A stretch of DNA of 64,000 nt. It comes from Acinetobacter sedimenti (GTDB lineage Bacteria; Pseudomonadota; Gammaproteobacteria; Pseudomonadales; Moraxellaceae). Below, piece after piece: positions 8,810-43,763 of this stretch (positions within the stretch are counted from its first letter, which is position 1; every line of letters begins with the position of its first letter). The position numbers and the translations under genes were made by a program. Where the stretch lies: NCBI RefSeq assembly GCF_022601685.1, contig NZ_JAKUML010000001.1:124001-188000 (forward strand), read 5' to 3'. Under the pieces are notes generated by a model. The model was not told where the DNA came from, made no database searches, and saw nothing but the letters and a program-made list of their open reading frames with translations.

Positions 8810-9688
8810 CTATGAAAATAGACGTTGTACTTTGCGCTGAATCTGTGGCGAACACATCAATAACGCAATAAAAATTAAACTAAAACCAATGACGTTGAGT
8901 ACATCAGGATATTCTTGCCAAAGCAAAGCTGCCCATATCCCTGCAAAAATAATTGCTAAATAATTCGCAGGACCGATCTGACCCGCAGGTGCGAGCTTAT
9001 AGGCATGTGACATGCAGAGCTGACTTGTGGTTGCCAAAACGCCTGCACCAACGAGATAAATCATTTCCATCATATCGAATGCACGCCAACGCCAAAACAT
9101 GGGTACCGCAGAAATGATGGTGGCGATTAAGCAAAAATAGAACACGATACGCACGGGAGGCTCAGTACTGGTCAATGCACGAACCGTGACGAATGCCATC
9201 GCTGCACAGAAGCTAGCGGTGATACCAATGGCAGACAAAGTATTAAATAAACCACTATCAGGCTTTGCCACAAAAAGTACGCCGATCATGCCCAAGATAG
9301 AGGTGATGATCATCCATGAGGTAATGCGTTCTTTTAAAAATAACCAGGCCACTAAAGGAATAAAAATTGGTGAAGAGTAGGTAAATACCATCGCATTGGA
9401 CAAGTTCATATGTGCAATAGCATAGAAAAAGCCATACATCGCAATCAGACCGATCACTGCACGCCATGTATGCATCCACAGCTTTTGCGTTTTTAGATTT
9501 TGAAAACCTGATCGAATGACCAATGGAAAAATAAAAATCAATCCGATCGCATTACGAAAAAATACGATCGTGGCATTATCAACCGTATGAGAGGCAAGGC
9601 GAATCAGTACGCCCATCGTCGCAAAAAGAAAGGCGGATATTGCTAAGAGATAGAGCGCAGTACGGATATTGGAGGTGCTGTCATGCAT
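8810..9688 (-). CDS. DMT-superfamily (EamA) exporter
   Basis: 292 aa with ten predicted transmembrane helices in two EamA halves. The sequence NAMVFTYSSPIFIPLVAWLFLKER in the first half, and AGQIGPANYLAIIFAGIWAALLWQE in the second, are typical of RhaT/EamA drug/metabolite transporters. The substrate cannot be read from sequence; relatives export amino acids, nucleobases or metabolites. I use the ATG at 9688; a longer frame would need a TTG at 9706. The 107-bp repeat copy begins only 26 bp upstream of this start, so it lies in the promoter or 5' UTR. Confidence 0.85.
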   Translation of the reverse strand: MHDSTSNIRTALYLLAISAFLFATMGVLIRLASHTVDNATIVFFRNAIGLIFIFPLVIRSGFQNLKTQKLWMHTWRAVIGLIAMYGFFYAIAHMNLSNAMVFTYSSPIFIPLVAWLFLKERITSWMIITSILGMIGVLFVAKPDSGLFNTLSAIGITASFCAAMAFVTVRALTSTEPPVRIVFYFCLIATIISAVPMFWRWRAFDMMEMIYLVGAGVLATTSQLCMSHAYKLAPAGQIGPANYLAIIFAGIWAALLWQEYPDVLNVIGFSLIFIALLMCSPQIQRKVQRLFS

Positions 9689-9713
9689 ATTAGAAAGTTG
9701 GCACAATAATCGC

Positions 9714-9820
9714 TATAGTCTGAGAACTTAATTCCTGCTAAAGCGTTAACCTCGTTCGCAGTACTATTTGTACATATTCGCTCAGTTGCCTTGTATCAGA
9801 AATCAATTTCTTCGACTATA
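9714..9820 (-). repeat. 107-bp dispersed repeat with TATAGTC terminal inverted repeats, copy A
   Basis: Read on the minus strand, this segment aligns without gaps to 42436-42542 on the plus strand, with 85 of 107 positions identical. Both copies begin TATAGTC and end GACTATA, and share the internal core GAGGTTAACG and TAGCAGGA. The length is identical in both and the termini are perfect, so this is a defined element and not chance similarity. It lies between the DMT exporter start and the 3' end of the coiled-coil protein gene. It encodes no protein. It behaves like a small non-autonomous mobile element (MITE) or a REP-like repeat. Confidence 0.85.
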
Positions 9821-9879: not shown

Positions 9880-10356
9880 TTATTGTACTGAAGTTTGCGT
9901 ATTTTCAGAATTTTGCAATTGTGCCTCGAGCTCTGCAAGTTGTTGCTCTTTCAGTTCAAGCAATTTATCGGCATCTTGATGTTGTTGTTCAAGCAAAACT
10001 TTTTGTTCACCCAGTTGCTTTTGGACTTCCTCAAGTTGCGCAATTTCATCTTTTTGTAGCGCTTGATCTTCAGCGATCGGCTGTTCAACCAGTGAGTCGT
10101 CTACTAAGGCCGCAAATTCTTCGCTATTTTCTTGCATTTGCTCGGTTTGTTCGGTCGATTGTTTAGCAATATCTGTGAGCTGTTCTTCGCTAAGCCCATG
10201 CTCTTCAAGTGGACGAGCTGATGATGCTTTGTCTGCTGTCGCACTTTTGGCAGGTTGATTATCCTGTAAACCCACGTAGGCTGCGATCGCCAAAACAACG
10301 ATGCAAATTACACCGATAATGATCCATAAATTTTTATTTGAATTTTCACTCGACAT
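9880..10356 (-). CDS. Membrane-anchored coiled-coil protein of unknown function
   Basis: 158 aa. One N-terminal transmembrane helix (NLWIIIGVICIVVLAIAAYVGL, about 9-28) is followed by a polar, Gln/Glu-rich domain. Residues ~100-150 show long heptads of Leu with Gln/Glu (LEEVQKQLGEQKVLLEQQ), a predicted coiled coil facing the periplasm or cytoplasm. GGAAG lies six bases before the ATG. No domain is recognised. It precedes the convergent exporter gene, and the same-strand yheV-prlC pair is upstream. Confidence 0.8.
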   Translation of the reverse strand: MSSENSNKNLWIIIGVICIVVLAIAAYVGLQDNQPAKSATADKASSARPLEEHGLSEEQLTDIAKQSTEQTEQMQENSEEFAALVDDSLVEQPIAEDQALQKDEIAQLEEVQKQLGEQKVLLEQQHQDADKLLELKEQQLAELEAQLQNSENTQTSVQ

Positions 10357-41902: not shown

Positions 41903-42358
41903 TTAGCGAATCGTTACATTGGCAATTTTTTCTAAATCCGCATCTTCGGTGAGGCTATAGAGTACAGGTTGATGCAGTGCGTCACGAAGTTGAAAACCAT
42001 TGAGATGTTGGTAGAACTGCTCTAATGCTTGATCTAATAAGGATTTTAGCCCACAGCTAAAGCGCAAAGCGCAAGCGGGTTCTAGGCAATTCACTGCTTT
42101 TTGGTCATGTTCTAAGGTTCGTACGATCTCACCAATCGGCAATTCGTAAGCTTTAGGTGCAAGTTGAATACCGCCCCCCTTACCACGTGTGCTGATAATC
42201 CAACCTTGTTTGACCATAAAATGTGTGACTTTCACCAAGTGATTTTCGGAGATTTTGAGGGCTGTTGCTGCTTGCGCAATAGTGACCAGTTCTTCACTCG
42301 GTTTGAGTAAGAACATGAGTAGGCGTAGACCATAATCACTAAATTTATTCAGTTGCAT
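41903..42358 (-). CDS. nsrR: Rrf2-family nitric-oxide-sensing repressor NsrR
   Basis: 151 aa. Winged-helix N-terminus (LNKFSDYGLRLLMFLL...ISENHLVKVTHFMVKQGWI) with the NsrR-type RGKGGGIQL wing. The iron-sulfur cysteines are Cys91, Cys96 and Cys102, with the same numbering as E. coli NsrR. NO destroys the cluster and releases DNA. The gene lies just downstream of hmp on the same strand, and an NsrR-like site is present in the hmp promoter. The 107-bp repeat copy B separates the two genes. Confidence 0.92.
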   Translation of the reverse strand: MQLNKFSDYGLRLLMFLLKPSEELVTIAQAATALKISENHLVKVTHFMVKQGWIISTRGKGGGIQLAPKAYELPIGEIVRTLEHDQKAVNCLEPACALRFSCGLKSLLDQALEQFYQHLNGFQLRDALHQPVLYSLTEDADLEKIANVTIR

Positions 42359-42435
42359 AGACAGCAGAGCAGTTCAAAAAGGCAAAAGACGAGTATAGCA
42401 TTGACTCGTCTTTTGCTATTGGTTTTAAAAAAACC

Positions 42436-42542
42436 TATAGTCGAAGTAACTTATTCCTGATACAGGGCAACCAAGTGAAGGTGTATAAGTCGTACTGCGA
42501 GCGAGGTTAACGAAGTAGCAGGATTAAAGTGCTTTGACTATA
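42436..42542 (+). repeat. 107-bp dispersed repeat with TATAGTC terminal inverted repeats, copy B
   Basis: Plus-strand copy of the element also found, inverted, at 9714-9820 (85/107 identical, no gaps). Its ends are TATAGTC and GACTATA. The similarity between the two ends continues imperfectly for roughly ten more bases (GAAGTAACTT versus AAAGCACTTT). It fills most of the hmp-nsrR gap and stops 3 bp short of the hmp stop codon. Coding potential is nil. Confidence 0.85.
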
Positions 42543-42545
42543 CAG

Positions 42546-43763
42546 TTAAGCACTGAGTTTTACACCACCAGTACCAAAGGCTTCGCTATGGATATTCTCG
42601 GCAGGAATTCCACGAGCTACGAGCGCTTTCTGTTGTTCAGCCATAAACGGCATTGGACCACAAAGATAATAATCTGCATCTTTAGGCAATTGATCATCAG
42701 AGAGTGCACTTAAATCTAAGCGACCTGCAATGTCATAATCTTGCCCAAGTTGGTCATGGGTTTCAGGAAACTCATAAGCCACTAAATGAGTAAGCTGTGG
42801 AAATTTTGCATTCAGTTCTTGCACATGTGACTTCATTGCATGCACTTTACCATTGCGACATGCATGATAGAAATATACGGATTCAGGCATATCTAAGCTT
42901 GCCAAATGATTGAGCATGGAAATCATCGGTGTGAGTCCAACTCCGCCACTGATCAACACATTTGGACGATCTTTATCAAATAAGAAGAAGTTACCTGTTG
43001 GTGCAGACACTTCGATTTCAGCACCTTCAGTTAGACCATGTAGTGTATTCGATACCCAACCACCTGCGAGATCGCCTTTTTCATCTTCACGTTTTACAGA
43101 GATACGTAAATAATCCTGCTGTGGACTATCAGATAATGTGTACTGACGTGGTTGCTTCAAGCCCAACTCTTCGACCAAAACACGTACCGAAATATATTGC
43201 CCTGCCTGATGTGTTGGTAGGTCGCCATCATCACTTGGCTTCAGATAAAAAGAGGTAATTTCACTGCTTTCTTGCACTTTTTTCGCAATTTTAAAGCTTC
43301 TCCAACCGAGCCAACTACCTTTGGTTTGCTGATGTTGTTCATAAATGGCTTTTTCTGCATTTATAAACACATCGGCAAGCTGACCGTACGCAACACCCCA
43401 AGCTTCAATCAATGGATCGTCCATTGAAATACTCAAGACTTCACTAATGGAATGCAATAAATTCTCACCAACAATCGCATAGTCAGGCGATTGAATATTC
43501 AAGCTCACATGTTTGTGCGCAATCAACTCAATCACTGGGGCAAGGACAGATGGATCATCAATATTCTCCGCATAAGCAAGCACCGCACCTGCGAGCGCCT
43601 GTGCTTGTGCGCCACTACGTTGGTGTCCCATATTAAAAGTTTCTTTTAACTCAGGGTTATTGCTGAGCATGCGATTGTAAAAATAGGAGGTGAGGGCTAC
43701 GCCACTTTCACGTAGAACAGGAACTGTGGCTTTGACGAGGTCTTTTTGGCTTTCAGTAATCAT
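42546..43763 (-). CDS. hmp: Flavohemoglobin / nitric oxide dioxygenase
   Basis: 405 aa. N-terminal globin domain with proximal His85 (IAHKHVSL), followed by a ferredoxin-reductase-like FAD/NAD domain: RQYTLSD binds FAD, GGVGLTPM binds NAD(P)H, YLCGPMPFM is near the end. It converts NO and O2 to nitrate using NAD(P)H. The promoter carries an NsrR-like site, and nsrR is the next gene downstream. Confidence 0.96.
   Translation of the reverse strand: MITESQKDLVKATVPVLRESGVALTSYFYNRMLSNNPELKETFNMGHQRSGAQAQALAGAVLAYAENIDDPSVLAPVIELIAHKHVSLNIQSPDYAIVGENLLHSISEVLSISMDDPLIEAWGVAYGQLADVFINAEKAIYEQHQQTKGSWLGWRSFKIAKKVQESSEITSFYLKPSDDGDLPTHQAGQYISVRVLVEELGLKQPRQYTLSDSPQQDYLRISVKREDEKGDLAGGWVSNTLHGLTEGAEIEVSAPTGNFFLFDKDRPNVLISGGVGLTPMISMLNHLASLDMPESVYFYHACRNGKVHAMKSHVQELNAKFPQLTHLVAYEFPETHDQLGQDYDIAGRLDLSALSDDQLPKDADYYLCGPMPFMAEQQKALVARGIPAENIHSEAFGTGGVKLSA

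Follow-up and report, generated by a model that had tools for sequence, protein, structure and literature searches.

Introduction

Work on Correia elements (CREE) dates from the 1980s onwards and treats them as a peculiarity of Neisseria, with regulatory roles and no known mover. They are described as unique to that genus (PMC2649163, PMC5039591), fall into length classes of 104-108, 153-157 and 69-73 bp with an IHF site in the long form, duplicate the target sequence upon insertion, and carry at their ends the 26-bp Correia repeat, for which patterns of the type TATAG[CT]GGATTAA... have been given (PMC2649163). Reported activities include binding and cleavage of CREE transcripts by RNase III, promoters at the element ends, and an effect, through RNase III, on neighbouring mRNAs. 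Within Acinetobacter, one described small element is MITEAba12, which derives from the parent ISAba12, is 113 bp in length, and has 16-bp terminal repeats and a 9-bp target duplication (PMC6382973). Here we describe a 107-bp repeat from an Acinetobacter genome and show how it compares with these systems.

Results

Two copies of a 107-bp element

The window (the whole 64-kb stretch of DNA that was analysed) contains two full copies of the element and no more, copy 1 at 42436-42542 on the plus strand, with its 107 bp counting the flanking TA at both ends, and copy 2 at 9714-9820 on the minus strand, also 107 bp. The first-pass annotation had described these two segments as starting with TATAGTC, ending with GACTATA and aligning without gaps at 85/107 identical positions, and our recomputation gave the same coordinates, ends and identity, with the next-best ungapped 107-nt match to copy 1 inside the window reaching 58-60/107. 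Based on the single TA found at the empty sites of other copies, the left TA (42436-42437) and the right TA (42541-42542) of copy 1 are the two putative halves of a target duplication. Using alignments A7-A9 we placed the 5' side of an internal loop at 42464-42468 (AGGGC here, AAGGC in the family consensus) and its 3' side at 42509-42514 (AACGAA here, AACGCN in the consensus), both on the plus strand, with an apical hairpin at 42483-42495 (+; GTAT-AAGTC-GTAC, consensus GTAC-N5-GTAC).

To the right of copy 1 is hmp (42546-43763, minus strand), encoding an NO-inducible flavohemoprotein (NCBIfam NF009805, above cut-off), and 3 nt separate the stop codon of this gene from the element's right end. 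Downstream of copy 1 is a gene for an NsrR-like, Rrf2-family regulator (41903-42358, minus strand), which scores below the NsrR equivalog cut-off, and between the two (window 42359-42435) we also observed a terminator-like inverted repeat, AAAAGACGAGT...ACTCGTCTTTT. Copy 2 has an EamA-family transporter gene downstream (8810-9706, minus strand) and an ORF of 158 aa without family upstream on the same strand (9880-10356, minus). It is identical to its orthologue in sister species G162 (107/107), while copy 1 has an orthologue at the same site in sister genome G199 (L183/L062). The copy 1 site lacks the element in the related MAG REDSEA-S32_B1, where divergence hides the junction.

The element is repeated genome-wide and inserts at TA

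The suggestion of a repeatedly copied element depended on there being further copies in the complete genome. Using blastn we detected 12 near full-length copies, plus fragments, in the 2.5-Mb host genome (G000), and a covariance model built from these 12 oriented copies alone (R1) matched 23 copies in G000, 34 in G162 and 24 in G199 at E<1e-8. The usual copy length in the three genomes is 105-109 bp, with internal-deletion derivatives of 81, 38 and 33 bp; in G199, a perfect 18-bp match to an element end, considered as the end of a longer element, proved to be the 33-bp form. Nearly all copies are intergenic, with 3/85 overlapping a long ORF. Comparison of flanks resolved 55 distinct sites, 25 present in two or three genomes and 30 in a single genome, and the site sets differ widely among the three sister species. 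Searches with a single copy using blastn had pointed to scarcity outside this clade, with almost no other Acinetobacter matched, but this was overturned by the covariance models described below, the few blastn relatives being due to limited sensitivity and sampling. A 22-bp match in G028 sits within a desaturase-like gene and is a chance match, and no copy of the window element was found in plasmid and phage collections. Separately, at G208:C36:9979-10161 we noted two same-strand core matches ~105 bp apart, which suggests a tandem or nested arrangement.

Sister-species comparison of occupied and empty sites showed X-TATAGTC...GACTATA-Y in the former and X-TA-Y in the latter, and several empty sites hold a single TA in place of the 107-bp unit. 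The clearest are L048 (TA in G000, TG in G199), L037 and L021 (each reading TA in the two remaining genomes, and the filled copy at L021 having its right TA decayed to CG), and the L146/L159 pair, in which insertions in G162 and G199 lie 79 bp apart in one intergenic region, each genome lacking the other's insert and the empty counterpart of the G162 insertion reading TA. Clean empty sites are few; L060 reads CA rather than TA, and at L143, L164, L004 and L024 divergence prevents a reading. These sites show that the 107-bp units are non-autonomous mobile elements which insert at TA. Without the TA on either side, the element itself measures 103 bp (TAGTC...GACTA), although two bases are too few to tell whether a DDE enzyme truly duplicated the TA or whether an element that itself ends in TA was inserted beside one. 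Of the two labels offered by the first-pass annotation, MITE-like therefore holds in the sense of mobility, and REP-like is not needed.

Pairing is maintained between families and lost in resident copies

A conserved structured element had been raised as an alternative to a mobile one, and strong covariation bears out this structure. In alignment A9, which comprises 42 sequences aligned by sequence alone, all of the core pairs tested (17/17) showed changes on both sides, giving 244 two-sided change cells against a shuffle mean of 81 (0/500 shuffles), and 91% of cells were paired, dropping to 28-43% in slid controls. The unpaired CAAGGC and AACGC are nearly invariant. On the element strand, paired positions contained G-T 44 times versus A-C 6 times, an excess that the finding of relatives could partly cause, as the models accept G-U and not A-C and the clade copies were aligned to structure. 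Both window copies fold clearly better on the element strand (z of -4.8 and -4.1) than on the opposite strand (-1.9 and -1.8).

Orthologous copies at 21 common sites behaved differently. Identity was 94.5% in the element versus 93.4% in the flanks, with 63 pair-breaking changes, 26 wobble changes and one compensatory change, and G-T (32) and A-C (28) showed no strand bias. Resident copies drift neutrally after insertion, so it must have been during spread that copies and families retained their pairing, which suggests that folding matters while elements are spreading and not once they are inserted. The ends follow the same pattern, as symmetric variants occur among copies (TATCGTC/GACGATA, TATAGCC/GGCTATA, TATAGTT/AACTATA, TTTAGTC/GACTAAA and GATCGTC/GACGATC), which are hard to reach through post-insertion drift and indicate that end pairing, like core pairing, was kept while the elements were spreading.

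The core extends across Gammaproteobacteria

A core model made from Acinetobacter sequences only (R2) matched 78/176 Acinetobacter genomes (E<=0.001) and 185/349 Moraxellaceae genomes, in 8/16 genera. After addition of sequences from Neisseria and from the Moraxellaceae genus g52 (R3), matches were obtained in 60 of 369 genomes sampled evenly across the class (54/272 genera), often with many copies, where the stated E-value gives a chance expectation of <1 such genome, with rough calibration. Across the families, including the 29 class-level loci inspected with R3, the core, which is the CAAGGC/AACGC loop between covarying helices, is constant and the outer ends differ. Copies in g52 (genomes of ~3.2 Mb) have ends like TATAGTGGATTCA, reminiscent of the Correia repeat; in most other Acinetobacter examined, TAGGGTCTGTTGACA bounds a ~255-bp element that contains the core; and at many class-level loci it is within a longer element running from TAGGGCCTGTTAACACTA to its complement ~270-300 bp away.

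The ~255-bp Acinetobacter repeat has the ends TAGGGTCTGTTGACA / TGTCAACAGACCCTA and bears the core (L235-L261). The ~270-300-bp repeats, which run from TAGGGCCTGTTAACACTA to TAGTGTTAACAGGCCCTA, contain a second hairpin domain and are present, often as multiple copies, in diverse Gammaproteobacteria (L278-L303; examples are L281, L290 and L295 around 1458-1760). We found no name for either in Rfam or in the literature searched by sequence strings, and the longer relatives were almost absent from plasmid and phage collections. Rfam gave no match above the gathering score for the window, four relatives and eight class-level loci, and the matches obtained were chance only.

The nature of the mover

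The first-pass annotation had also called for a transposase with matching ends, and this was not found in the three genomes. In G000, G162 and G199 no IS630-type DDE_3 transposase (PF13358) scored above cut-off, and a search for longer elements sharing these ends gave none. Weak DDE_3 matches in the sister genomes, considered as IS630, are instead IS3-type (rve-like) transposases near contig edges. We infer that movement takes place in trans.

The main alternative is an ordinary MITE, an internal-deletion product of a TA-duplicating IS (IS630/Tc1-mariner or IS5/IS427 type), for which the terminal inverted repeats would be recognised by sequence and the hairpin would simply follow from the long inverted repeats. 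TA duplication is also what a classic DDE transposase would produce when it works on terminal repeats, which would account for the TA at both junctions; inverted ends and lack of coding capacity fit as well, and relatives from other Acinetobacter and from further Gammaproteobacteria show distinct terminal repeats of 16-20 bp (TAGGGTCTGTTGACATTTC, TAGGGCCTGTTAACACTA) that also start with TA. However, an IS630/Tc1-type MITE has both a TA target duplication, which we observe, and a DDE_3 parent of the same termini, which is absent above cut-off from G000, G162 and G199, as is any longer element with these ends. Moreover, under terminal recognition one would expect the reverse of what is seen, namely an inner core conserved across families of differing termini; the ends vary yet remain paired, and G-T is far above A-C on one strand. 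We consider this origin possible but doubtful.

Placement beside stop codons

Copy 1, with the hmp stop codon at its right end, exemplifies a wider pattern. Across the 55 sites of G000, G162 and G199, the right end was ≤15 nt from a facing stop codon at 24 and the left end at 2 (p=1e-5), and such adjacency was commoner at shared, older sites (15/25) than at unique ones (9/30; p=0.03), the distances resting on mechanical ORF calls with some error. As we found no strong consensus in the flanking sequence beyond the TA, this one-sided adjacency seems to reflect differential survival more than a choice of target. No such pattern was seen in gonococcal CREE, of which only 12 copies were examined.

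This placement could also be read as that of a host-beneficial structured RNA, either an sRNA or a 3'-UTR element, which was duplicated and retained to regulate the adjacent gene. The right-end adjacency and its enrichment at older sites fit such an RNA, as do strong covariation and strand asymmetry. Yet orthologous resident copies drift like their flanks, with pairs broken without compensation, the sites vary widely among sister species, and the stop-codon pattern is missing from the 12 gonococcal CREE, all of which make a host function unlikely to explain the element.

Relation to Correia elements

R1, which contains no Neisseria sequence, aligned over the full length of a 107-bp gonococcal CREE (55.4 bits, E=3e-12), with the best E-values on gonococcal CREE reaching 1e-12, and also matched a 106-bp CREE and the 155-bp forms more weakly. 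Over six 50-kb gonococcal stretches (300 kb) it gave 10 matches, all of them CREE; nine had been found independently by their end pattern and one is a 73-bp CREE, with one 155-bp CREE in this DNA being missed. The R1 matches and alignment A8 show that the Acinetobacter element and CREE have in common the conserved core between their inverted ends. Most copies (105-109 bp) also agree with the 104-108-bp CREE length class, and the empty TA sites agree with target duplication. However, the 26-bp Correia repeat is not conserved at the element ends, where just TATAG and scattered letters are held in common, and we therefore refer to the element as Correia-type and not as a CREE. That this likeness arose by convergence, with any long TATAG...CTATA quasi-palindrome scoring, draws on the unconserved Correia repeat and on models that are palindromic by design, but is very improbable given that a Neisseria-free model picked ten CREE and nothing else from 300 kb of gonococcal DNA and that the common unpaired letters (CAAGGC, AACGC and the GTACAAATAGTAC loop) are not required by palindromy.

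A search of the open-access literature, with most subscription journals beyond its scope, found no report of CREE outside Neisseria. In N. gonorrhoeae records the Correia sequence was present at 100% in at least 40 places each, and in viral contigs too. Among these searches we noted that PLSDB NZ_CP119140.1 and NZ_CP119142.1, listed as 2.17-Mb N. gonorrhoeae "plasmids", look like mislabelled chromosomes.

Discussion

Taken as a whole, our results are best explained by a Correia-type non-autonomous element that inserts at TA, has a core homologous to that of CREE, is moved by a trans-acting factor that would read its fold, and drifts after insertion, a reading to which we assign a probability of roughly 0.8. 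Under this model the quasi-palindrome, which has no gene, must be moved by a protein supplied in trans, and it inserts at TA, leaving TA at both junctions. We infer that the mover reads a folded single strand, with recognition presumably falling on the CAAGGC/AACGC internal loop between helices rather than on fixed termini, in which case the ends may change together provided that they still pair. Copies drift neutrally after they have inserted.

A broader proposal is that a single mobile superfamily spans the class and takes in CREE, the 107-bp repeat of Acinetobacter and many unnamed repeats of 250-300 bp. In it the conserved and selected part would be the folded RNA or single-DNA-strand core, read during movement by a trans-acting factor, and the terminal repeats would be free to turn over; we regard the chances of this as about even. 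What was supposed to be a curiosity of one genus looks like a widespread, undescribed superfamily. The relatives in Acinetobacter and the class-wide core offer dozens of new species in which the CREE-type mover can be sought, and the conserved part (the core structure) can now be separated from the variable part (the ends). Pairing that is maintained between families yet lost in resident copies also provides a test of where selection acts, and these abundant, apparently undescribed elements are relevant to genome annotation and to intergenic RNA data.

Among known systems, MITEAba12 resembles the element in being small, non-autonomous, of about equal size and from the same genus, but its duplication is 9 bp compared with 2 bp (TA) here, and neither this 9-bp duplication nor ISAba12-like 16-bp ends were found in the 107-bp element. 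RUP and ERIC are intergenic quasi-palindromes of ~100-130 bp, RUP being 107 bp and TA-flanked, and both are likened to the element by description, as functional analogues only. Integron attC sites were considered and rejected, as the copies are dispersed and not in cassette arrays; the attC R boxes also do not fit the core letters of the element. The ~255-bp repeats of other Acinetobacter, with TAGGGTCTGTTGACATTTC ends, and the ~270-300-bp repeats of other Gammaproteobacteria, with TAGGGCCTGTTAACACTA ends, have the structured core in common with the 107-bp element but differ from it in being longer, in having a second hairpin domain and in their other terminal repeats.

The closest comparison is with CREE (also NEMIS). 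The two differ in host (Acinetobacter, not Neisseria), in terminal repeat (TATAGTCGAAGAAATTAATTTCTG in the Acinetobacter element, TATAG[CT]GGATTAACAAAAATCAG in CREE), in the lack of a 153-157-bp form among the Acinetobacter copies listed, and in placement, with the Acinetobacter element behind stop codons in one orientation and CREE mostly 5' of genes. Nevertheless, they are alike in their 104-108 bp length, TATAG...CTATA ends, target duplication, copy numbers in the tens to hundreds, absence of coding capacity and internally deleted short forms, and they possess a homologous structured core, CAAGGC ... GTACAAATAGTAC ... AACGCNGTA.
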